A stretch of 64,000 nucleotides of DNA from Anaerolineaceae bacterium oral taxon 439 (GTDB lineage: Bacteria > Chloroflexota > Anaerolineae > Anaerolineales > Anaerolineaceae), in contig CP017039.1 in NCBI GenBank assembly GCA_001717545.1, positions 992,001 to 1,056,000 on the forward strand. The letters are read 5' to 3'. A program made the translations under genes and the position numbers. Every line of letters begins with the position of its first letter. Position 1 is the stretch's first letter. The notes beneath the pieces are model-generated. The model had not been told where the DNA came from. It searched no databases and saw only the letters and a program-made list of their open reading frames with translations. Shown in pieces: positions 1,093 to 22,213 of this stretch.

Positions 1093-1138
1093 AACGTTTC
1101 CCTGCCGGTTCGGGGGGAGAGCTATGAAGGAGAGTTGC

Positions 1139-3829
1139 ATGAAAAATCCGCAGATGATACTGAAAAAAGCATGGCAGGCCGTCCTGGCTGTCGCCGTCGT
1201 CGCGCTGATCGCGGCGGGGTCGGTTTTCGCCGCGACCGAGTTCCTGAGCGGCGGGGACTGCAAAGCGTTTCATACGGACGGGATCCTGTTTACCGGAAGC
1301 GTTTCGATAACCGGGACGACGGTTGAAAAATGGCGCGATCGGGTCCTGGTGACGATTACCGATCCGAACGGCGTTGAATACACGACGGGCAACGACCGGG
1401 TCAAGGAGCTGATTTTATACGCCGCTTCGGACAGCACGCCCTACCAATGCCAGCAGCTGTCATCGAATCCGCCGAATCCGCCGAACTCGTTCAGCTGCAA
1501 CAGTTTCCCGAAGAACGGCGTCATCGCACGTGTCGGGATCCGTTTCATCCCCGCTTTCCAGGGCCCGAACCCGACCGACCCGGCGCTTCCGGGAAAATAT
1601 ACGATTAAGATTAACAGTCTGGTCGTTACGACGGATCAGCTGCTCGACGGGCACGCGACGATCGACGCGGTTTCGACGGCTTGCGCTTGGAATATGTCGA
1701 TCCGGGAATGGATCCCGGACCCGGACGGAACGCCGAAGACGGATAAATTCGTGTTTAATGCGAATAAAGAAGCTGCATGCCATGACGGCGGCGTCGTGCA
1801 AACGGCGCAGACGCTCAGTTTTAAGGACGAGCCCGGAAAGGCGTTTACGATCGTCAGCCTGCCGTTGGGCGAGGCGTTTGATACCGGGCGCGTTCGCTTT
1901 TACGGCGATAAGGTGATCAAGGAATTTGATTATAGTATAGAATTGAACTTTAAAAATAATGTTAATGTCGACTATAAAGTAACTTATGCGTATCATAAGG
2001 GTACAAATCCAGCCGATCACTCGGTGAATCCGATAGGTTTTGTCCCTGCCGCGCCTTGGGCGACTGTTCATAACGAACTGCCGCTCCGGTTTGTAGGGGG
2101 AACGATCAAAATCGATGTTGGGGCGCTGCCGTTCGAGAGTCTTCCGACGGTTTCGGATTTCAAGTTTACGTTCTATTATGCGAATAAGAACCCAACGCTG
2201 GGCTACGAAAACTCCATGTTCCATTTTGAACGGGAGATGAGCGTCGTCTTTTCGCGAACGTGCGATGTCGCGACCAACCTGAAATATCGGACCACCAGCG
2301 TCGCTTACGACCCCTGCATCCCGACGAAGCAGGTCGCGTCGATCAGCTTCACGGATGCTACTGGAAACGGGTATAATCCGATAACTTCGGTGCCATCGCT
2401 GGCCGGTTCGGATATGCCGCCGGCGGTTGCCGGCGGTTATATCCCTACGTCGACCTTTGCCGCGGCGCCTTTGCGGAACTGGTACTTTGAGGTCGAACGC
2501 TGCAAGAACGCGACCTGCACGGATAAGGAACGGCAGTCGGACACGTATATCCACCGGATTTACGTCGACGACGCCGAGGTGGATAACCGCTGGTGGCACT
2601 ATAACGCCACTCCTGAAGCCAATATGCGCCGATATACCGGAATCCCGCTGAAGACTTTTCAGGGCGCTGGCCGGCCGTTCGAGATCAAGCAGATGGACGT
2701 GACGATCCGCGGCGCGGGAACGTATTTCGTGCGCGCGATGATGCCGGATATCAGGATGTCCGGTGCCGGAAGCGGACCTTGGTACCCGAACAACGCGATG
2801 ATGGAATTCTACCTGACGGTTCCCGAAAAAGCCGGCGAGAATACCTGCTCGAGCGAGGGCTCGGACGGGATGTATAAGGTGATCTGGGATGGCTGCGGCG
2901 AGAATTACGTTCCCCAGACGCAGAAGTTCGAAGCGGTCAACGAGAAATATGGGTTTATCTCGAATTATTCGGCGCTGACGCTCGAATACCGGTTGAACCC
3001 GTCGAAGTCGAGCCTGACGTCGGTCGCGGAGATCGCGGAGCTGGAATGCGAATGGCAGCTGTTAGCCGAGGGATACACGATCGATGGGTCCGGCTGCTAT
3101 AAGGATAAGATTATTCTCCCGCCGTTCACGCGCGCGATTATCAAGGGCGGGAAGATCGTTATGCCGGTGAAGCCGACGTTTTATCAGAACGATACGCTCA
3201 GCGAATTTGTCATGGCGTATACGCGGCGAACCACGGAACAGAATACTAACCTGTTTATTAACGCCACGGATCAGGAATGCCCGCGCGAGCCGATTCCGGA
3301 TACCGGGTATTCGCTGCGTTCGCCGGCGCCGATGAGCGCGGCGGATCAGTCCGGCTTTATTTTCACGGGCAATACGCTCGAGATTCCGGCGATCGGGCTG
3401 GGGACGGAATACCCGATTGAAATCGTGCATATCAACTATCTGAACGGGAAGGACCTGTCCGGCGGGTATGACCTGAAGGTCTTGGGCGGGTATGTCGGCG
3501 AGCTTGAGGGCGGCGCTTATCTTCCGTATCCGGGGAATACCGTCCTGACGGGGCATTATTATTCTCAGGGCGTCTTCGTCAACCTGACCAGTCTGCATAT
3601 GGAAGATGAAATTATTATCTATGGGACGGACGGATATAAGTACACGTACCGCGTCAACAACTCGTTCTGGACGAAGCCGGACGACGCGTACATGATGTTC
3701 CAGCCGAACGGCGAGCGGTCGCTGACGCTGGTGACCTGCGACGATTATAACTTTATCGACGACGAGTATAAAAAGCGCTATATCGTCCAGGCAACGATTT
3801 CGTCGATCGAACCATATAACAAGGAATAA
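1139..3829 (+). CDS. Large secreted protein with a C-terminal sortase domain
   Basis: The protein has 896 residues. I chose the ATG at 1139 because AAGGAG lies 6 nt upstream; an in-frame ATG at 1124 is possible. Residues 1-32 form a signal peptide. Residues of about 35-700 form a long extracellular region with many paired cysteines and no family I recognise. The last 150 residues are a sortase fold: catalytic His near 806 (TGHYY), Cys near 867 (TLVTC) and Arg near 880. An IPDTG pentapeptide (residues 719-723) precedes that domain, where a sorting signal would look like (L/I)PxTG. The protein probably acts at the cell surface as a transpeptidase or self-attaching protein. It stands alone and ends at a strong bidirectional terminator. 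Confidence 0.8.
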   Translation: MKNPQMILKKAWQAVLAVAVVALIAAGSVFAATEFLSGGDCKAFHTDGILFTGSVSITGTTVEKWRDRVLVTITDPNGVEYTTGNDRVKELILYAASDSTPYQCQQLSSNPPNPPNSFSCNSFPKNGVIARVGIRFIPAFQGPNPTDPALPGKYTIKINSLVVTTDQLLDGHATIDAVSTACAWNMSIREWIPDPDGTPKTDKFVFNANKEAACHDGGVVQTAQTLSFKDEPGKAFTIVSLPLGEAFDTGRVRFYGDKVIKEFDYSIELNFKNNVNVDYKVTYAYHKGTNPADHSVNPIGFVPAAPWATVHNELPLRFVGGTIKIDVGALPFESLPTVSDFKFTFYYANKNPTLGYENSMFHFEREMSVVFSRTCDVATNLKYRTTSVAYDPCIPTKQVASISFTDATGNGYNPITSVPSLAGSDMPPAVAGGYIPTSTFAAAPLRNWYFEVERCKNATCTDKERQSDTYIHRIYVDDAEVDNRWWHYNATPEANMRRYTGIPLKTFQGAGRPFEIKQMDVTIRGAGTYFVRAMMPDIRMSGAGSGPWYPNNAMMEFYLTVPEKAGENTCSSEGSDGMYKVIWDGCGENYVPQTQKFEAVNEKYGFISNYSALTLEYRLNPSKSSLTSVAEIAELECEWQLLAEGYTIDGSGCYKDKIILPPFTRAIIKGGKIVMPVKPTFYQNDTLSEFVMAYTRRTTEQNTNLFINATDQECPREPIPDTGYSLRSPAPMSAADQSGFIFTGNTLEIPAIGLGTEYPIEIVHINYLNGKDLSGGYDLKVLGGYVGELEGGAYLPYPGNTVLTGHYYSQGVFVNLTSLHMEDEIIIYGTDGYKYTYRVNNSFWTKPDDAYMMFQPNGERSLTLVTCDDYNFIDDEYKKRYIVQATISSIEPYNKE

Positions 3830-7643: not shown

Positions 7644-10022
7644 TTATTGAACGATGTATTCAGTCCAGAGCGCGCCGCGCTGCTGCGGCCCCAACCCGAA
7701 GGTCATCCCGCTCGGGCTGGAGAGTTTGAAATCGACCCGCTGCGTCCCCGATCCGAAAACGGGGTAGGAAATTGTCACGTCGCCTTCCTGTCCGGGCTGG
7801 ATCGTCGTCCCGAAGCGGAAAAGCCGCTGCGCGCCGGGCTGGAGCCCGGCGGTCGCGACCATGAAATAATCTTCGGCCAGCGGGCAGCTCCCGTCGTTTC
7901 GGAAGCGCCAGGTTTTGGTCATGCGCTGACCCTGCGCAATGGCCTGCCCGTCGGGCGTGACGTCGGCGACGAACCCGACCCGGTCAGTACAGCCCTGCGG
8001 GCGGTCCGGCGCGTCCGTCATCGCGCTCCTTTCGATTGGATCGGGAAGTCCGGAGGCTTTTTCGCCGTCGACTTCGCCGGCGCTGACGGCGCAGCGGAAG
8101 CCGAAGGATTGCGGATTCGCGCCTTCGACGCCAAAGCGCCCAGCCAAAAGCCAGCCGGATTCAAACTGCGCGTCTGCGGCTGAGCCGCCTTTGACCGTTC
8201 GCGTCGTTCCGCTGAGAGGGCCCTGCGGATTTTCCATCCCGGCGGACATGACGCGGTTCTCGCTGTAAAAATCGTTGGTCCATTCAGCAACGTTCCCGCC
8301 CATCGAAAGCGCGCCGTACGGGCTCCGGTCGAAGGTTTCGGCGTCGTCCGCCGGACGGAGCGCGCCTAAAACGGACGCGTCCGCCTGCGAATACGGACTG
8401 TCGTTCCCCCAGGGGAAGAGCGCGCCGTTCGTTCCGCGCGCCGCCTTTTCCCATTCCGCTTCGGTCGGCAGCCGCTTTCCAGCCCAACGGCAGTAGGCTT
8501 CCGCGTCCGCCCAGGCGATCCCGACAGCCGGGAGAGCGTCGTCGGCTGGGAAGCGCGGATCGGTTGGCTCGGCGCAGATCGTCGACTGAGCGCAGCTGCG
8601 GTACTGTCCGGCGCTGATTTCAGTCTGGTCGATCCAGAACGAATCGACGATCGCTTCGGTCATCGGCGTTAAAATCGAGAGATTGAAATCGAATTTCCCG
8701 TCGAGCCCCATCTTGAACGCGCCGCCGGGAACGTAGACCATTTCCTGCCGGTCTTTCAGCCAGACCAGCCCCGCGCCGATTTCCGTTCGAATCGGGAGGT
8801 TTTCCTGAAGCGGGGCAGCGTTCGAGGCTTCGTCGGGAATGGCCTGGTTCTCCGAGACCGAGGCGTTTTCCGGCGTGGCTTCGGCGGCGATCGGCAACGT
8901 GACTTTTTCAGCCAGGACGGTTTGCGTCAGGTTAAGCGCGTCGAGCGTTCCGCGGTAATTCGGGCGATCGCCGACCGGGATTACGCTCAGGTAGCGATAG
9001 AGGAAGAATCCGCCGGCGATAACGCCGATCGCGAAGAACGCGCTCAATACGCCGGCGAGCGAACGCCGCCGGCGGGCCGATTTATCATAGTCTTTGATCG
9101 TGTAGCCTGGGCGCGGCTTCGGTTCGGCGGGCTCTTCCGATTGGATCGGCGCGGCCCCCGCTGGGCGTTCCTTCCCGGCCGAGGGACGCGCCGCCGTTGG
9201 GCGGGGAAGCGCGGCGGCGGGTTCTTCGTTCGTCCAGCGCTCCAGGATGCTCCGGAAGTCGTTGAATACGTCGATCCCCGAAGAAAAACCTTCTTCGCGG
9301 CTGGGGGTCAGGCATCGCAGAATCAGGTCAGAAATATCGCGGGCGGGAAAGCCCTGAAAATTCGCGAAACCCGCTTCGTAGTATTCGTAGTACTGGTTGG
9401 CGTTGCGCCTCGAATCGGCGACGGACGCGCCGTAGGGGATCAGCCCGGTAAACAGTTCGGCGAGAACGACGCCCAGCGCGAAAACGTCGTCGCGTTCGGT
9501 CGGCTCCTGATCGTTCGACGCGGCATGCCGATAGCGTTTCAGCTTCGCGTCGTATTCGGTCGGAAGCGGTAAAAAGGAAACGAGCGCTTCTTCGTTATCG
9601 GCGATCAGGACATGATTCGAGCTCAGCGATCCATGCGCTATGCCCTGCCCATGCAGCGCGGCTAACGCTGAAACGATCGAATAACCGAAGCCCATCGCCC
9701 GATTTATTTCCAACGGCCGCCCGCTTTCTTTTAAAACGTCCGCGAGCGATTTTCCGGGATAATACGCCTGACTCAGGATCAGTCCTTCGGGAAAGACATC
9801 GGGAATGCCGACCGGGATAACGAGCGAATGCCGGAATGCGGATCGTTTCTGGAACGTCAGCTGGAGCGAGAGGAGGGTCGACGCCTGCGGAAAGGCGTTG
9901 ACCGGGATAACGCGCAGGTAGCAGTCAGCCCCGGTTTCGATCCGCGTCGCGCGAAAATAAGATGAATCGTTCGATGGCGCGTATTGCTCTGTAATCCGGT
10001 AGTTCAGAATAACCATGCTCAT
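7644..10022 (-). CDS. Membrane pseudokinase with SUMF1-like and NBR1-like Ig outer domains
   Basis: Of 792 residues, about 1-265 have a protein-kinase fold, but the catalytic loop reads HGSLSSN (residues 130-136) instead of HRDxKxxN, the DFG motif is replaced by VSFLP, and the usual lysine position reads CYLRV. Phosphotransfer is therefore unlikely. The helix-F region (DVFALGVVLAELFTG) is kept. One membrane span (about 322-344) follows a basic stretch. Outside, residues of about 428-660 are a SUMF1/formylglycine-enzyme-like domain without the catalytic cysteine pair of true FGE, and about 680-792 resemble the NBR1-type Ig domain. It may be a receptor that signals through binding. Start sites 10022 and 10016 are both possible; neither has a well-spaced RBS. 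Confidence 0.8.
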   Translation of the reverse strand: MSMVILNYRITEQYAPSNDSSYFRATRIETGADCYLRVIPVNAFPQASTLLSLQLTFQKRSAFRHSLVIPVGIPDVFPEGLILSQAYYPGKSLADVLKESGRPLEINRAMGFGYSIVSALAALHGQGIAHGSLSSNHVLIADNEEALVSFLPLPTEYDAKLKRYRHAASNDQEPTERDDVFALGVVLAELFTGLIPYGASVADSRRNANQYYEYYEAGFANFQGFPARDISDLILRCLTPSREEGFSSGIDVFNDFRSILERWTNEEPAAALPRPTAARPSAGKERPAGAAPIQSEEPAEPKPRPGYTIKDYDKSARRRRSLAGVLSAFFAIGVIAGGFFLYRYLSVIPVGDRPNYRGTLDALNLTQTVLAEKVTLPIAAEATPENASVSENQAIPDEASNAAPLQENLPIRTEIGAGLVWLKDRQEMVYVPGGAFKMGLDGKFDFNLSILTPMTEAIVDSFWIDQTEISAGQYRSCAQSTICAEPTDPRFPADDALPAVGIAWADAEAYCRWAGKRLPTEAEWEKAARGTNGALFPWGNDSPYSQADASVLGALRPADDAETFDRSPYGALSMGGNVAEWTNDFYSENRVMSAGMENPQGPLSGTTRTVKGGSAADAQFESGWLLAGRFGVEGANPQSFGFRCAVSAGEVDGEKASGLPDPIERSAMTDAPDRPQGCTDRVGFVADVTPDGQAIAQGQRMTKTWRFRNDGSCPLAEDYFMVATAGLQPGAQRLFRFGTTIQPGQEGDVTISYPVFGSGTQRVDFKLSSPSGMTFGLGPQQRGALWTEYIVQ

Positions 10023-15423: not shown

Positions 15424-17511
15424 ATGAGCGACGACAGTATGAAGACGATCGGGCGGTACATCATCGAGCGGGAGATTGGGCGCGGGGGAATGGCGACCGT
15501 TTATCGTGCGCATGATCCGCAGCTGGACCGGGCCGTCGCGATCAAGCTGATCCGGAAGGGAGCTTTCGCGCCGGAGCAGCTGGCCATGATGATGGAGCGG
15601 TTCCGACGGGAGGCCAAGGCGCTCGCGAAATTGAATCATCCGAATATCGTTAAAGTCCTTGATTATGGCGAGTATCAGAACGCGCCGTATCTGGTTATGG
15701 AATACATTGACGGCGTGACGCTGAAGAGCTTGAAAAAGCCGCTGCGGCTGGACGTGGCGGTACGGCTGCTGCTGCCGATCGGGGAGGCATTGGCGTATAT
15801 TCATGATCAGGGCCTGCTGCATCGAGACATCAAACCGTCGAATATAATGCTGACGAAGGATCGGCGGGTGATCCTGACGGATTTCGGGATTGCGAAATGG
15901 ATCGAGAACGACGGCGGGCAGGTAACGCTGACGGGGACGGGGATCGGAATCGGAACACCGGAATACATGGCGCCTGAGCAGGGCCGCGGACAGCGGGCAG
16001 ACGGAAGTTCCGACGGGTATTCGCTGGCAGTCGTATTTTATGAGCTGGTCACCGGGGTGAAACCGTATCAGGGGGATACGCCGGTTGATATCCTGATTAA
16101 GCAGGCGAACGATCCGATTCCGGATCCGCGCATGATTAATCCGAAGCTGCCTGTCACGGTGAAGCGATTTTTGGATCGGGCGATGGCGAAAAAACCTGCC
16201 GATCGGTATCCGACGATGAATGATTTTTTACGGGACTTCAAGGAACTTCGACTCTCCCCGGTTGGGAAACCGGCGGGACAGGGGAAGGAATCGCGCATCC
16301 GGAATGGCGACACCGGGACGGATCAAATCTGGACCCGATTTGCGGATGATACGCGGACCGGCAGCTCGATCCGACTGGAAAAATCGGATATTCGCAAGGT
16401 TCGCAAGGCGACCGTCGGGCAAAGCCGTTCCCCGCAGGGCAGGGCATGGGAGGGGAAACGAACAGGGGTGATAATTCTGGCGGTGAGTATCCTGATGGGT
16501 TGTATTGTCTGGGTCGGTATCCGCTTCGGTTTCGGAGATTCGCCGGGTGGCGCGACGATGACGGCGCCTGCGCTTGAAGATTCGGGAGAAGGGGAAGTCA
16601 GGCCGGAGCATGCTGCAAGGCCGACGAGGGTCGCGGAGGCGACGAACGATTGGGAGAGGACGAAGTCCACGGCTCAGGAGGTTTCGCTTCCGGATCATTC
16701 CGCGGCGACGCAAACGGCTGTGTCTCAGCGGTCAGAGGAATCCATGCGGGAGACGTCGGAATTTCTGGATCGTCAGGCAACAGAATTGGCTGCTGCGCTG
16801 AGCCGTATCACGGAAACCGCGAATGCTGCGGAGCGAATCCGGTTGACGGAGATTAGCCTGCCTACGGAAACGCCGGAACCAACGGCGACGGAAAGACCGT
16901 TCGCGAAATTACGCGTTGGAGATACGATCGAATTCGGGCGCTATGAGCAGGATAACGAATTCGGAAATGGACCCGAGGCGATCGAGTGGGAGGTTTTAGA
17001 GATCAAGGATGGCAGCGCGCTGATCGTCAGTCGGTATGGCCTGGACGCAAAGTCGTATCATGATATCTATACGGAGATAACGTGGGAGCGCTGCACGCTG
17101 CGAAACTGGCTGAATAACGATTTTTATGATGAGGCTTTCAATGAGGCAGAGAAAAATCAGATTTTATCAACAACGGTAATAAATCCGGAAAATTCGACGT
17201 ACGGGACGAGCGGAGGAGATTCGACAGAAGACCGCGTTTTTCTTCTGAGTTTAGCCGATGCACGGCGTTTTTATGAAACGGACAGGCAGCGGGTTCTCGA
17301 CGCAACCGCATACGCAAAAGCGAATGACGTTTTTATCAGCGAAGACAACGGCAGAACGTTTTGGTGGCTGCGGACGCCTGGACAAACGCGGCTTTACGCC
17401 ACAGGGATCAAGTCGTTTGGAACGCCGGACTATAACGGCGTAAACGTTCAATTCCCTCAGGGCGCGATCCGGCCGGCAATCTATCTGGCGATGGACTCGA
17501 ATCAGGAATAA
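15424..17511 (+). CDS. Membrane Ser/Thr kinase (PknB type) with DUF6273 ectodomain
   Basis: First of three tandem paralogues, 695 residues, start MSDDSMKTIG after GGAGGAG. The kinase domain (about 11-275) is complete: glycine loop GRGGMATV, Lys41, HRDIKPSN (133-140), DFG (153-155), GTPEYMAPE. A basic linker leads to one membrane span (about 348-370). Outside lie a Thr/Ala/Glu-rich stalk and a domain of about 190 residues with the DUF6273 pattern (EFGRYEQDN, LRNWLN, FLLS, WWLR), a fold often attached to bacterial surface proteins. It probably phosphorylates cytosolic targets in response to an outer signal. It heads a three-gene operon; the next start is 54 bp downstream. Confidence 0.9.
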   Translation: MSDDSMKTIGRYIIEREIGRGGMATVYRAHDPQLDRAVAIKLIRKGAFAPEQLAMMMERFRREAKALAKLNHPNIVKVLDYGEYQNAPYLVMEYIDGVTLKSLKKPLRLDVAVRLLLPIGEALAYIHDQGLLHRDIKPSNIMLTKDRRVILTDFGIAKWIENDGGQVTLTGTGIGIGTPEYMAPEQGRGQRADGSSDGYSLAVVFYELVTGVKPYQGDTPVDILIKQANDPIPDPRMINPKLPVTVKRFLDRAMAKKPADRYPTMNDFLRDFKELRLSPVGKPAGQGKESRIRNGDTGTDQIWTRFADDTRTGSSIRLEKSDIRKVRKATVGQSRSPQGRAWEGKRTGVIILAVSILMGCIVWVGIRFGFGDSPGGATMTAPALEDSGEGEVRPEHAARPTRVAEATNDWERTKSTAQEVSLPDHSAATQTAVSQRSEESMRETSEFLDRQATELAAALSRITETANAAERIRLTEISLPTETPEPTATERPFAKLRVGDTIEFGRYEQDNEFGNGPEAIEWEVLEIKDGSALIVSRYGLDAKSYHDIYTEITWERCTLRNWLNNDFYDEAFNEAEKNQILSTTVINPENSTYGTSGGDSTEDRVFLLSLADARRFYETDRQRVLDATAYAKANDVFISEDNGRTFWWLRTPGQTRLYATGIKSFGTPDYNGVNVQFPQGAIRPAIYLAMDSNQE

Positions 17512-17565
17512 AGCGTCCAAAAAGACAATGATGCGCATGGCAGTTAAGGAGTGAGGCGTAAAAAT

Positions 17566-19941
17566 ATGAGCGACGACAGCATGAAGACGATCGGGCGGTA
17601 CATCATCGAGCGGGAGATCGGGCGCGGGGGAATGGCGGTCGTGTACCAGGCGCACGATCCGCATCTGGATCGATCGGTCGCGATTAAGCTGATCCGGAAG
17701 GGAGCGTTTACCGGGGATCAGCTGGAAACGCTCCCGGAACGCTTTCGGCGCGAAGCGCGCGCGTTGGCGAAGCTGGACCATCCGAATATCGTGAAGGTTT
17801 TAGACTACGGGGAGTTTGAAGGGTCGACGTATCTGGTCATGGAGTATCTCGAAGGAATAACGCTGAAGGAGGTGAAAAAGCCGCTGCGGGTAGAAATGGC
17901 GGTGCGGCTGATTCGTCCGATCGCAGAGGCGCTTGAATACGTCCATGATCATGGGATACTCCACCGTGACGTCAAGCCATCGAATATCATGATTACGGCG
18001 ACGAAGAAGGTCATGCTGACGGATTTCGGGATAGCGAAATGGCTGGAAGATCGATCGGATCAGTTTACGCTGACGGGGGCGGGGATCGGAATCGGGACGC
18101 CGGAATACATGGCGCCGGAGCAGGGGTTGGGTAAAAAGATCGACGCGCGGGCGGATATGTATGCGCTGACGGTGGTATTTTATGAGCTGATTAGCGGGAG
18201 AAAACCGTTTTCCGGCGAAACGCCGCTTGAAGTGCTGACGAAACAGGTCAGCGATCCGATTCCTGATCCAAGAACGATTATTCCCGAGCTGAACGAATCG
18301 GTAAAGAAATTCTTAGATCGAGCGATGGCGAAGAAGCCGGAGGACCGGTATCCGACGATGATGGATTATTTACGGGATCTGGACGGGCTGCGGCTGCAGT
18401 CGATCGCAGAGGCGGCGAGCGGAAATACAGGGATTCAGGTCACTTCGCGCAAGGATCCAACGACAAACAGCTCGGTCCGCTTTGGGAAAACAGACATGCG
18501 GAGGGTTCGCGAGGCGGCGGAAGACCGTTCGAGCCAGGCGCCGAAAGCTTCAGGGGAAGACAATACGGGGCGCGTGACGACAAAAGCGGAGGATCATCAG
18601 AATAAAAACGCCGCCGTAAGAAAACCGAATCGCCTGCGCTGGCTCCTTCCTGCGGTGGGACTGCTGGCGATTCTCGTGGGATGGATCGGAATTCAGCGTC
18701 GGGCCGGAAGATTGCCGGTTGAACCGATGGGGACGCCGACTGAGATGATCCTTGGCGTTGAGAGAAGTCAGACGGACATCCCCATGATTGGGATGGAACC
18801 GACGGCTGTCGTTAATCATCAGGGGAAAGAGGCTCCCGTGCAGTCGGGAACCGTCTTTCCGTCGGAATTTATACCGATTGCGATGACCGAAACGGAACCG
18901 GCGATGGGTCAGGGTTTGACGCTGATCGAGCCGCAGCAGGAAATCATTGAAACTCAGTCTCCTGAAAGGAAAATGGCAACGCATACGGCGATCGCAGAGC
19001 AGAAAAAAGCGGCGCTTTACGAAACGGTAACCGCGTTCAATCAGCGGTTAACCGAAACAAAACAAGGTTACTATCCGGCTCGTAATCCGGTTTCTACGCC
19101 CATGCTTGCCGGAACGTCGGTACTGACAATGACGCCAGCCTTTGCAGCAACGCGCCTGGCGCAGGATATGACGTCAACCGCCGCGAAGCTGAATCTTGAG
19201 GGAACGGCGATTGCCGTTCATCAGAAAGAAACGGAGTTGGCGGCGATTGTTACGGAAATGACGCTGACGGCGGTCGCCGCGGAACGGATCCGATTGACGG
19301 AAGAAGAGGCGGCGGCACGGGCGCAGGCGGAGCGGATCCGATTGACAGAGCTTAGCCTGCCTACGGAAACGCCGGAACCAGCTGCGACGCTTTCGGTTGA
19401 TAACCCGTATGCGGATATAAAGGTTGGGAAAATATTGCCGCGCACCGGTTTCGCTCCGGGGCGGATCACGAAACTGCCGGAACAGCCGGCTGCGAAGCTC
19501 TACCAGACATCGAAGCTGCTCATGAAGATTCCGGCCCTGAACCAGTCGCTCGAAATCATCGGCATCTTGCGGGTTGACGGCGAATGGGATATCGCGTGGC
19601 TCGGACAGTACGCCGGCTACCTCGAGGGGTCGGCGTATCCGACCTGGGAAGGTAACTCGATCATCACCGCCCACGTCTGGGCCGCCTACAACAACCCGGG
19701 TCCGTTCTTCGGATTGAAAGACCTGAGATACGGCGACAAGTTCATGATCGAAGCCTATGGCAAGACGTACACGTACGAGATTCGCGAATCCGAACAGCTG
19801 CTCGAAACGGACGTTGAAAAGATGATGACGCGGAAGGAAGGCAGCTGGATCACTTTGATGACTTGCACGACGTATGATGCGAGCGAAGATAGATATAAAT
19901 ATCGCTACCTGGTCCGTGGCGTACTGATTGAAGTGAATTGA
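17566..19941 (+). CDS. Ser/Thr kinase-sortase fusion
   Basis: 791 residues; start MSDDSMKTIG aligns with both paralogues and has GAGG 9 nt upstream (an upstream GTG at 17551 is less likely). The cytosolic kinase domain is complete: Lys41, HRDVKPSN (133-140), DFG (153-155), GTPEYMAPE. A membrane span (about 358-376) and a stalk of about 245 residues with repeated AERIRLTE units follow. Residues 624-628 read LPRTG, and residues of about 650-791 are a sortase domain with His703 (TAHVW), Cys767 (LMTC) and Arg near 780. Topology puts the sortase outside. The sequence from about base 19440 uses more C-ending codons than the rest, as if the sortase module came from elsewhere. I know of no common architecture like this. 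Confidence 0.9.
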   Translation: MSDDSMKTIGRYIIEREIGRGGMAVVYQAHDPHLDRSVAIKLIRKGAFTGDQLETLPERFRREARALAKLDHPNIVKVLDYGEFEGSTYLVMEYLEGITLKEVKKPLRVEMAVRLIRPIAEALEYVHDHGILHRDVKPSNIMITATKKVMLTDFGIAKWLEDRSDQFTLTGAGIGIGTPEYMAPEQGLGKKIDARADMYALTVVFYELISGRKPFSGETPLEVLTKQVSDPIPDPRTIIPELNESVKKFLDRAMAKKPEDRYPTMMDYLRDLDGLRLQSIAEAASGNTGIQVTSRKDPTTNSSVRFGKTDMRRVREAAEDRSSQAPKASGEDNTGRVTTKAEDHQNKNAAVRKPNRLRWLLPAVGLLAILVGWIGIQRRAGRLPVEPMGTPTEMILGVERSQTDIPMIGMEPTAVVNHQGKEAPVQSGTVFPSEFIPIAMTETEPAMGQGLTLIEPQQEIIETQSPERKMATHTAIAEQKKAALYETVTAFNQRLTETKQGYYPARNPVSTPMLAGTSVLTMTPAFAATRLAQDMTSTAAKLNLEGTAIAVHQKETELAAIVTEMTLTAVAAERIRLTEEEAAARAQAERIRLTELSLPTETPEPAATLSVDNPYADIKVGKILPRTGFAPGRITKLPEQPAAKLYQTSKLLMKIPALNQSLEIIGILRVDGEWDIAWLGQYAGYLEGSAYPTWEGNSIITAHVWAAYNNPGPFFGLKDLRYGDKFMIEAYGKTYTYEIRESEQLLETDVEKMMTRKEGSWITLMTCTTYDASEDRYKYRYLVRGVLIEVN

Positions 19942-19960: not shown

Positions 19961-22213
19961 ATGAGCGACGACAGCATTAAGACGATCGGGCGGTACGAAA
20001 TCAAGCGGGAGATCGGGCGCGGGGGAATGGCGATCGTGTATCAGGCGCACGATCCGCAGCTGGACCGGGTCGTCGCGATCAAGCTGATCCGGAAAAGCGC
20101 GTTCCCGCCGGAACAGTTGGCGCCGATGACGGAGCGGTTCCGACGGGAGGCCAAGGCGCTCGCGAAATTGAACCATCCGAATATTGTAAAGGCGCTGGAT
20201 TATGGCGTACATGAGGGAGCGCCGTATCTGGTCATGGAATATATTGACGGTGTGACGTTGAAGGACGTGAAAAAGCCGCTGCGGGTGGACGCGGCGGTAC
20301 GGCTGCTGCGTCCGGTTGCCGAGGCGCTCGAATATGTCCATGGACAAGGCCTGCTGCACCGGGATATCAAACCGTCGAATATCATGATTACCAGAGACGA
20401 ACGCGTGATCCTGACGGATTTTGGGATTGTGAAGTGGATGGTGGATGAAGACGACCCGTATACGCTGACCGGAACGGGCCTCGGGATCGGGACGCCGGAA
20501 TACATGGCGCCCGAGCAGGGGCGCGGACAGAAGATCGACGCGCGATCGGACGCGTATTCATTGACGGTGGTGTTTTATGAGCTGATTACCGGCGTAAAAC
20601 CGTATCGGGGAGAGACGCCGGTCGATATCCTGATTAAGCAGGCGAATGATCCGATTCCTGATCCGCGCGAGATCGTTCCGGAGCTGAATCCATCGGTAAA
20701 GCGATTCCTTAATTGCGCGATGGCGAAAAAGCCGGAGGCCCGCTATCCGACGATGAAAGATTATTTACGGGACTTCGAGGGACTGCGGCTGCAATCCCTC
20801 GCGCAGGCGGCGAGCGGAAATACCGGGATCCAGGCGTCTCCTCGTACGGATTCGACGACAAACAGTTCGGTCCGTTTTGGAAAAACGGATTTTCGAAGAG
20901 TTCGCGAGGCGGCGGGGGCCCCATCCCGGAAGAATTGGTTCCGCGGCGTCGGGATTTTCGCGGCGGCGCTTCTGATTGTCGGCGCCGCGCTGCTGGGCGT
21001 ATTGCGCACCCGGGTGGAACCGGAGCTTCTGCCCACGGGAACGCCGCGGATCCAGCTCGTCAAGCCGGAAATCACGCCGACGGGGCCTTCCAGTCCGACG
21101 GAAAATCGGCCGGCGACAGCGGCGGCGAGAACGGCCTCGCAATCGGCGTATCGGGAAACAGAAATCGTGGCGGCGTCTATTGAAAGGACTGAAATGGCGC
21201 GCGGGACCGCGATTCAGGGAACCGCGTCAGCGTTAGCGGATCGGGCGACAGAGCTCGCTTCGGTGTCGTTGGCGCTGACGGAACGAGCGAACGCGCCGTT
21301 AGAGACGGAGGTCGCTTCGTTGAGCCGGACGGCCACGCTGCTGGCTGGATCCGGCGGGTCGGAAGGCGAGGCATCTTCGAATTCATTGGACGAGACGGTG
21401 TCAGCTGAACTCCTGATCGAAATCGGATCGCAGGATTCGATTCATATCATCGCTTCGTCGGACGAGGCGGCGCTGACGATGATCGCTGAGTTTCAGCAGA
21501 TCCGGACGCAGGCGGCGCTGATCCAAACGCCGGAGTCGGGAGCGGAAAGCGCGATCGATCTTCAAATTCAGTTCCCGACGGAGACGCCCGCCCGTACGAA
21601 TCGGTTCGCGAACCTGAGCGTCCGGGACACGATCGAATTCGGACGCTATGAGCAGGATAACGACTTAACGAATGGAAGCGAACCGATCGTCTGGCAGGTT
21701 CTGGAGGTTTCCGATGAGAGCGCGATGATGATCACGAGATACGGGCTGGATAAAAAAGGCTATCATGAAAAGTATCTTGATGTCACCTGGGAAACGTGTT
21801 CGCTGCGGAACTGGCTGAATACGGATTTTTACGAGAGCGCTTTTAATGAAGAGGAAAAGCGGCTGATCGAGGAAACGCGTGTCCTGAACGCGGATAATCC
21901 GGTTCACGGGACGCCGGGCGGAAACAGTACGCCCGATAAGGTTTTCCTGCTCAGTCTGGAAGAAGTCCGTCGCTTATTTCCCGGAAATCGGGAGCGCATC
22001 GGCCGGCCGACGTATTACGCGGAAGCCAGAGGCGCCTGGACGTCGAAGGAGGAGGGCTACGTCGGGAACGCGTGGTGGTGGCTCCGATCCGGCGGGCTTG
22101 ACGCCAGGCAGGCGGCGCGCATCTTCGTTGGCGGCGCGCCGGACGTTGACGGCGCTTATGTGAATGACGACCGCGGCGTTGTTCGTCCTGTGATCCGGGT
22201 CACTCTGAATTAG
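19961..22213 (+). CDS. Membrane Ser/Thr kinase (PknB type) with DUF6273 ectodomain
   Basis: Third paralogue, 750 residues, starting 19 bp after the kinase-sortase gene. The kinase domain is complete (Lys41, HRDIKPSN 133-140, DFG 153-155, GTPEYMAPE). The juxtamembrane part shares the motif NSSVRFGKTD with the second paralogue, while its ectodomain matches the first: DUF6273 pattern EFGRYEQDN, LRNWLN, FLLS, WWLRS. The membrane span is about 329-347, followed by a long Ser/Thr/Ala-rich stalk. The mixed pattern suggests recombination between copies. The substrate and the outer ligand are unknown. No phosphatase gene accompanies the three kinases here. Confidence 0.9.
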   Translation: MSDDSIKTIGRYEIKREIGRGGMAIVYQAHDPQLDRVVAIKLIRKSAFPPEQLAPMTERFRREAKALAKLNHPNIVKALDYGVHEGAPYLVMEYIDGVTLKDVKKPLRVDAAVRLLRPVAEALEYVHGQGLLHRDIKPSNIMITRDERVILTDFGIVKWMVDEDDPYTLTGTGLGIGTPEYMAPEQGRGQKIDARSDAYSLTVVFYELITGVKPYRGETPVDILIKQANDPIPDPREIVPELNPSVKRFLNCAMAKKPEARYPTMKDYLRDFEGLRLQSLAQAASGNTGIQASPRTDSTTNSSVRFGKTDFRRVREAAGAPSRKNWFRGVGIFAAALLIVGAALLGVLRTRVEPELLPTGTPRIQLVKPEITPTGPSSPTENRPATAAARTASQSAYRETEIVAASIERTEMARGTAIQGTASALADRATELASVSLALTERANAPLETEVASLSRTATLLAGSGGSEGEASSNSLDETVSAELLIEIGSQDSIHIIASSDEAALTMIAEFQQIRTQAALIQTPESGAESAIDLQIQFPTETPARTNRFANLSVRDTIEFGRYEQDNDLTNGSEPIVWQVLEVSDESAMMITRYGLDKKGYHEKYLDVTWETCSLRNWLNTDFYESAFNEEEKRLIEETRVLNADNPVHGTPGGNSTPDKVFLLSLEEVRRLFPGNRERIGRPTYYAEARGAWTSKEEGYVGNAWWWLRSGGLDARQAARIFVGGAPDVDGAYVNDDRGVVRPVIRVTLN

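Follow-up and report, generated by a model that had tools for sequence, protein, structure and literature searches.

A kinase gene that ends in an LPxTG site and a sortase domain: a candidate self-sorting tail of the order Anaerolineales

Sortases are the enzymes that staple proteins to the cell wall, and they are known as separate enzymes which act in trans on many substrates. What, then, is a sortase doing at the end of a protein kinase? The question is raised by a gene of Anaerolineaceae bacterium oral taxon 439, found in the window that we analysed, a stretch of 64,000 nucleotides (contig CP017039.1, positions 992,001 to 1,056,000). In a single frame with no internal stop, this gene encodes, in this order, a kinase of the PknB type, a single membrane span, a stalk, the peptide LPRTGF, a linker and, at the end of the protein, a sortase domain (Table 1).

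Table 1. Coordinates in the window of the kinase-sortase gene, its parts and related genes
Feature	Position	Strand	Basis or remark
Kinase-sortase gene	17566..19941	+	791 codons plus stop
Ser/Thr kinase domain, residues 12-262; Lys41, HRDVKPSN 133-140, DFG 153-155	17599..18351	+	Pkinase (Pfam) 174.5 bits, cut-off 31.7; motif positions
Cytosolic juxtamembrane segment, residues 263-356	18352..18633	+	Placed between kinase and span; partly common to sister genes
Single membrane span, about residues 357-377	18634..18696	+	Hydropathy
Extracytoplasmic stalk, residues 378-623	18697..19434	+	End shared with neighbouring kinase gene 15424-17511
LPRTGF, residues 624-629, proposed in-cis sorting site; predicted cut Thr627/Gly628	19435..19452	+	
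Linker from LPRTGF to sortase core, residues 630-652	19453..19521	+	Near-constant length in close relatives
Sortase domain, residues 653-787	19522..19926	+	His703 19672-19674, Cys767 19864-19866, Arg780 19903-19905
Second window protein ending in a sortase	1124..3829	+	IPDTGY upstream of core; divergent, same design
Tandem paralogue: kinase, span, stalk, DUF6273 ectodomain	15424..17511	+	
Tandem paralogue: kinase, stalk, DUF6273 ectodomain	19961..22213	+	Kinase 75% identical, residues 1-318

An initial annotation had read the frame as a complete kinase joined through a membrane span and a stalk to a sortase, and Pfam matches, motif positions and hydropathy agree with it. The catalytic residues of the kinase are all in place, and the predicted span is the sole strongly hydrophobic segment found in the protein. 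LPRTG (residues 624-628) lies beyond that span, near the C-terminus; since the kinase is cytosolic, the motif would be outside the membrane. An alternative GTG start at 17551 would add five codons, but we take the ATG at 17566 as the start because both flanking paralogues open with the same peptide, MSDDS. No PASTA domain is present among the Pfam matches of the protein at E 0.01, and its best NCBIfam kinase match, the PASTA kinase family NF033483, scores 326 bits, below the cut-off of 450. A scan for promoters and terminators gave signals at or below the level of shuffled DNA.

The sortase domain is intact in sequence. It scores 67.7 bits with the Pfam sortase family PF04203 (cut-off 26.6), and in an alignment of 95 modules the columns of His703, Cys767 and Arg780 are conserved in 95, 94 and 93. 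Modelled with AlphaFold2, residues 611-791 (mean pLDDT 61, pTM 0.64) take the sortase fold that had been expected there: the 50 Foldseek rows listed are all sortases (best E 5e-10), and VIA-align superimposes the model on solved sortases with Z up to 14.7 and 2.2 A over 126 residues. Profile score, beta-barrel and the His/Cys/Arg residues together place the domain in PF04203, as an intact, predicted transpeptidase. It also matches TIGR01076 (46.7 bits, NCBIfam cut-off 39.35). Class C is the nearest sortase class by NCBIfam score, at 54.1 bits with the class cut-off of 160 not reached, and class C sortases are among the best PDB sequence matches. There is no C-terminal membrane span of the class C type; the protein ends four residues past the Pfam match, with no hydrophobic segment.

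A feature that the initial annotation does not mention is LPRTG itself, at 19435-19449, just before the sortase. Across the 95 aligned modules its residues are kept as the catalytic ones are: P in 94, T in 90 and S in four more, G in 93 and the following F in 93. The first residue is Leu in 68 of the 95 and elsewhere Ile, Val, Met, Ala, Thr, Pro or Asn, and the x position is free (3.2 bits). Residues 615-623 are not conserved, so that conservation sets in abruptly at the motif. Judged by sequence, P-x-T/S-G-F with x left free is what one expects of a site that a sortase recognises.

How firmly is the motif tied to the sortase? We collected 113 distinct modules, a count which excludes sortase matches below 45 bits and repeat copies. 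Where more than 200 residues precede the core, 99 of 102 have xPxTG 15-60 residues upstream of it and the other three have LPASGF, LPTSGF and IPSSGF; where the N-terminal part is shorter or cut, five of 11 have xPxTG. In the 102 long-frame modules the 6,120 residues that immediately precede the cores contain the fuller motif [LIVM]PxTG[FY] 95 times, and the 66,082 residues that lie before these in the frames contain it not once; on this count we reject a chance LPRTG. A profile that contains the motif could have made such counts circular. This is countered by the same count on matches of PF04203, which lacks the motif, in 101 genomes of the order. Among the matches listed, 41 lie in frames of at least 440 aa, and 40 of these have an upstream [LIV]PxTG, the exception being L211; in 32 it stands 24-29 residues before the core, as [LIV]PxTG[FY], and in eight it is an LPGTG at 153-212 residues. 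Of the matches in frames shorter than 440 aa we inspected the 30 best loci, 15 further short frames and L212. The 30 best, with frames of 134-433 aa (those of L167 and L169 truncated where the contig ends), are all stand-alone sortases and none has an upstream LPxTG, while one (L176) has TPATG at -117. Fourteen of the 15 further frames have no LPxTG, and in the fifteenth, L254, which lies at the end of a contig, there is a distant upstream LPGTG; L212 (427 aa) has LPETG at -141. We define a self-sorting LPxTG-sortase module as an LPx[TS]G-type site placed about 20-30 residues upstream of a C-terminal sortase core, or before a membrane hairpin upstream of it, and the kinase-sortase protein fits this definition.

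The genome of the kinase gene encodes seven sortase domains, one stand-alone (a 308-aa frame, L001) and six in long frames. In a whole-genome comparison three giant proteins (frames of 3233, 2652 and 3628 aa) matched the kinase tail with 77, 64 and 61% identity, over a stretch that starts at residue 623 or 624 and ends at 790. These giant proteins carry Cna_B domains, and one also has a SpaA-like match under its cut-off; two of the three have a hydrophobic N-terminal segment. In the wider set the cargo of the module includes Cna_B, SpaA-like, DUF11 and beta-helix domains, with nothing but the sortase in four of 13 proteins scanned. A search of genome contigs with the single protein returned four relatives, three with the upstream motif (L037-L039) and one partial core (L040); a search of viral contigs gave 45 pattern stretches and no relative among them. 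All four close LPRTGF modules of this genome have Arg at x, though x is free across the order. The second sortase protein of the window forms a divergent subgroup with L089 and L090, in which IPxTGY stands 41-53 residues before the core, against about 26 for LPxTGF. Elsewhere the site itself has been multiplied: in L065 the LPSTGF segment before the sortase is doubled as a 22-residue direct repeat, and L075 has LPDTGF and LPNTGF in tandem.

On balance we favour a self-sorting tail as the reading of the C-terminal 168 residues of the kinase: a sortase and the LPxTG site that it recognises, in one chain. Outside the membrane, LPRTG would move into the catalytic site of the sortase joined to it, in the manner of the class C lid. 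Cys767 would then cleave the Thr627-Gly628 bond, and the acyl bond would go to an amine, for which peptidoglycan or lipid II is the likeliest source and a different surface protein a possible one. Peptidoglycan is likely to be there, because MurE and MurJ are encoded in the window, both over their family cut-offs, and the genome has five Mur ligase matches. In secreted, adhesin-like proteins the tail would take the place of the usual LPXTG-membrane-KR end. In the kinase, where it replaced a DUF6273 ectodomain, it would leave the stalk covalently bonded to the wall and make a wall-tethered receptor, and kinase activity might be affected in turn. The distance is plausibly no obstacle to the motif reaching its own active site: the Pro of LPRTG is 78 residues from His703, and in SrtC2 of GBS the Pro of the lid is 71 residues from the catalytic His (PMC3493515).

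The same likeness to class C can be read differently. LPRTGF could be an uncut pseudo-substrate lid that holds the sortase inactive; displaced by another protein, it would free the enzyme to act on other substrates. The class C lid lies in the active site where LPXTG binds, mimics that motif and is called a pseudo-substrate (PMC3493515), and an uncut pseudo-substrate would also fit the fixed spacing, the Phe conserved directly behind the motif and the place that the lid has in class C. Most VIA alignments with class C sortases begin at model residues 14-16, inside the motif (the exceptions are 3re9 at 39, 4d7w at 34 and 4g1j at 3), and most with classes A and E begin later, at 29-38 (2kw8, at 13, is the exception). 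In the model the motif stretch has a pLDDT of about 30, so that its placement over the active site is not fixed by the model. Residues 611-655 contain no DP-aromatic lid motif; LPRTGF is there instead. We nevertheless hold a lid to be rather unlikely, for several reasons. Resemblance to a substrate would suffice for a lid, yet P-x-T/S-G with a free x has been kept.

A second reason comes from the eight proteins with a far LPGTG, which together with L212 make a lineage of nine. Here an upstream part is followed by LPxTG, a membrane span, a short loop, a second span, a linker and the sortase, so that the motif precedes a span as a sorting signal does. DUF11 repeats lie upstream in the two proteins scanned. 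The nine form one side of a branch with SH-aLRT 96 in a tree of few columns and many unresolved forks, which we use for this clade only. The design resembles a sorting signal of the usual kind with a membrane-anchored sortase behind it, such as fusion of a substrate gene with its sortase gene might produce.

A lid would also call for substrates in trans, and none was recognised by profile, nor by the LPxTGF pattern in the genome of the kinase. The Pfam LPXTG anchor PF00746 has no credible match in that genome (best E 0.9); it is over its cut-off in one of 14 genomes of the genus and in none of ten further genomes, the best match outside the genus being that of G073 (E 0.006, 18.4 bits, below cut-off). 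Because the profile may be blind to the anchors of this phylum, we give these negatives a supporting role: the LPGTG-hairpin proteins of two genomes (G028 and G065) were not listed by it, and it passes its cut-off in only two of 14 control genomes. A DNA pattern for LPxTGF matched the genome 16 times, with 12 true LPxTGF readings. Four are the sortase modules, and the other eight, short or mid-frame readings, have no membrane span after the motif in the stretch inspected. A wider LPxTG pattern gave 210 matches, against 127 in a reversed control.

Finally, the number of copies would be odd for an enzyme that acts in trans. The module profile matches every one of the 14 genomes of the genus at 1e-6. 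Counting stand-alone types, a single genome has up to 47 matches and five genomes (G305, G251, G306, G303 and G302) have 22-47 each, numbers far above those usual for sortases. In the order the profile matches 251 of 301 genomes at E 1e-8, stand-alone sortases included; for 250 of the 251 the best E-values are 1e-40 or better in 153, between 1e-40 and 1e-15 in 38 and weaker in 59. In a draw of 400 genomes from the phylum, 92 match at 1e-15. The strong matches of the order mostly begin at profile position 2, where LPxTG (positions 2-6) begins, and lie in long frames. Outside the order no match begins before position 6 (four begin at 6-8 and all others from 16 onwards), and the frames are of 184-433 aa, with the exception of one of 816 aa with an internal stop (G490). 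On these sequence matches the LPxTG-sortase tail is common in the order Anaerolineales.

Could the motif be a true sorting site that is cut by some other sortase, either the stand-alone enzyme of this genome (L001) or further module copies? This genome has a stand-alone sortase of about 300 aa, as do, among the matches listed, most of the 101 genomes of the order, so the means would be at hand. We find this improbable all the same. In the common class the spacing between the site and the core of its own sortase hardly varies. Moreover, two genomes, G073 (97% complete) and G127 (92%), have a single PF04203 match each, which for G127 lies in a frame truncated by the end of the contig, and we take these single matches to be the fused modules that the module profile finds in them.

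The initial annotation saw in the sortase an output or a sensor of the kinase, which would tie phosphorylation to the sorting of other surface proteins. Both domains do lie in one membrane-crossing chain, and the fusion itself stands. The proposed role has fared worse, and we would now give it only a slim chance, since the same module ends proteins that have no kinase. A kinase is found in the same frame in one of the 113 distinct modules and in none of 50 further sortase frames and 20 more loci, counts which a distant kinase domain could escape because many of the sampled loci had only 1.5 kb upstream. The sister kinases bear DUF6273 where this one bears the sortase. When kinase and sortase places were compared by eye among the matches listed, no second fusion was seen in the genus. 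A search for the combined architecture, within a sample of the phylum, thus finds the fusion in one species only and the sortase module widespread; on this sample the kinase fusion is a lineage-specific use of a common module. Because the module ends giant adhesin-like and many other long proteins, and brings its own LPxTG, we regard the sensor and trans-acting readings as less likely than a self-attaching tail. The remark that no system of this kind was known agrees with our search of the open-licence literature, with Chloroflexota to Anaerolineales included, in which we found no description of a kinase-sortase or of an in-cis, fused or self-sorting sortase. Of two papers, one (PMC7203096) discusses sortases of Gram-positive phyla, and the other (PMC1586193) reports one sortase-like Chloroflexus protein, without evidence of function.

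How did the kinase acquire its tail? Both neighbours of the gene are its tandem paralogues, encoded on its own strand and separated from it by 54 and 19 bases. Against gene 15424-17511, stalk residues 501-624 are 36% identical in protein and codons 588-608 are 90% identical in DNA; the homology ends at codon 608 in DNA and at residue 624 in protein. The blastn similarity to the nearest copy of the module, that of the 3233-aa frame, begins at codon 625. Because homology breaks at the motif, the exchanged unit appears to have been LPRTG plus sortase, put where the sisters have DUF6273. The kinase itself belongs to a subfamily whose five closest copies are 61-75% identical to it, and which is confined to this species among the 14 genomes of the genus (best elsewhere 48%).

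It may be that a chance shuffle copied the tail into a kinase gene without any particular function, and the restriction of the fusion to one species, as of the kinase subfamily among the 14 genomes, would agree with that. Selection speaks against it. Between the modules of the kinase and of the 3233-aa protein dN is 0.18 and dS 1.07, values that indicate constraint and no recent copying; dN/dS on the kinase branch is about 0.16, by a three-point estimate which may span time before the fusion. The catalytic and motif residues are intact. A functionless shuffle is therefore very doubtful. An assembly chimera or a frameshift, the error that could have undone the initial annotation, is hardly credible, because the frame is open, the genome (2.95 Mb) is in one contig, the junction joins a stalk homologous to that of the sister gene to a module, and the sortase segment differs in DNA by at least 25% from its three nearest copies in the genome. 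The composition profile has no clear break at the gene.

The self-sorting tail may be set beside known systems. Class C (pilus) sortases, the nearest class by score, share with it an N-terminal segment that resembles the substrate at a similar spacing; the kinase tail differs in having neither a DP-aromatic lid nor a C-terminal span, in carrying a full LPxTG and in being attached C-terminally to long proteins. LPXTG wall-anchored proteins such as Cna_B/SpaA adhesins (PF00746) are alike in that module proteins often have a hydrophobic N-terminus, several have Cna_B, SpaA or DUF11 domains, and LPxTG lies near the C-terminus. Unlike them, the module proteins have a sortase domain in place of the span and KR tail, and a separate sortase may be unnecessary. 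PASTA kinases (PknB, PrkC, Stk1) have the same N-terminal kinase, single span and wall-facing ectodomain. PASTA domains bind muropeptides; the protein described here, with a stalk, LPRTG and a sortase and no PASTA found, would bind the wall covalently rather than by affinity. Self-processing in cis is itself familiar from the FrpC-type RTX module, where, as in the proposed tail, the chain is cleaved in cis and the new C-terminus is passed to an amine, though by Asp-Pro chemistry with calcium and without a sortase fold.

More speculatively, the sorting of surface proteins in this order may largely have moved into the substrates, each with its own LPxTG and a single-use sortase, so that a protein would staple itself and release the sortase part. 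The kinase of one species would then be built into the wall in the same way and could serve as a sensor of wall tension, of wall turnover or of whether it is attached. We offer this as a possibility, somewhat short of an even chance. If it is correct, the union of enzyme and substrate in a single chain would amount to another principle of cell-surface construction, with one enzyme spent per protein, and it could explain the many sortases of bacteria without recognised LPXTG anchors. The order-wide module is the larger finding and the wall-tethered kinase its most striking use: the module may be useful as a one-piece protein ligation tag, and on the kinase it offers a receptor design that can be tested.

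Two other genes deserve mention. One (L036, G000:C1:431000-433200, + strand) is a 377-aa frame with the first residues of the kinase family, a juxtamembrane segment, span and a DUF6273-like ectodomain, from which the kinase domain is missing. The other, at 7644-10022 on the - strand of the window, combines a weak Pkinase match (29.3 bits, cut-off 31.7) with FGE-sulfatase and N_BRCA1_IG domains and looks like a receptor based on a pseudokinase.
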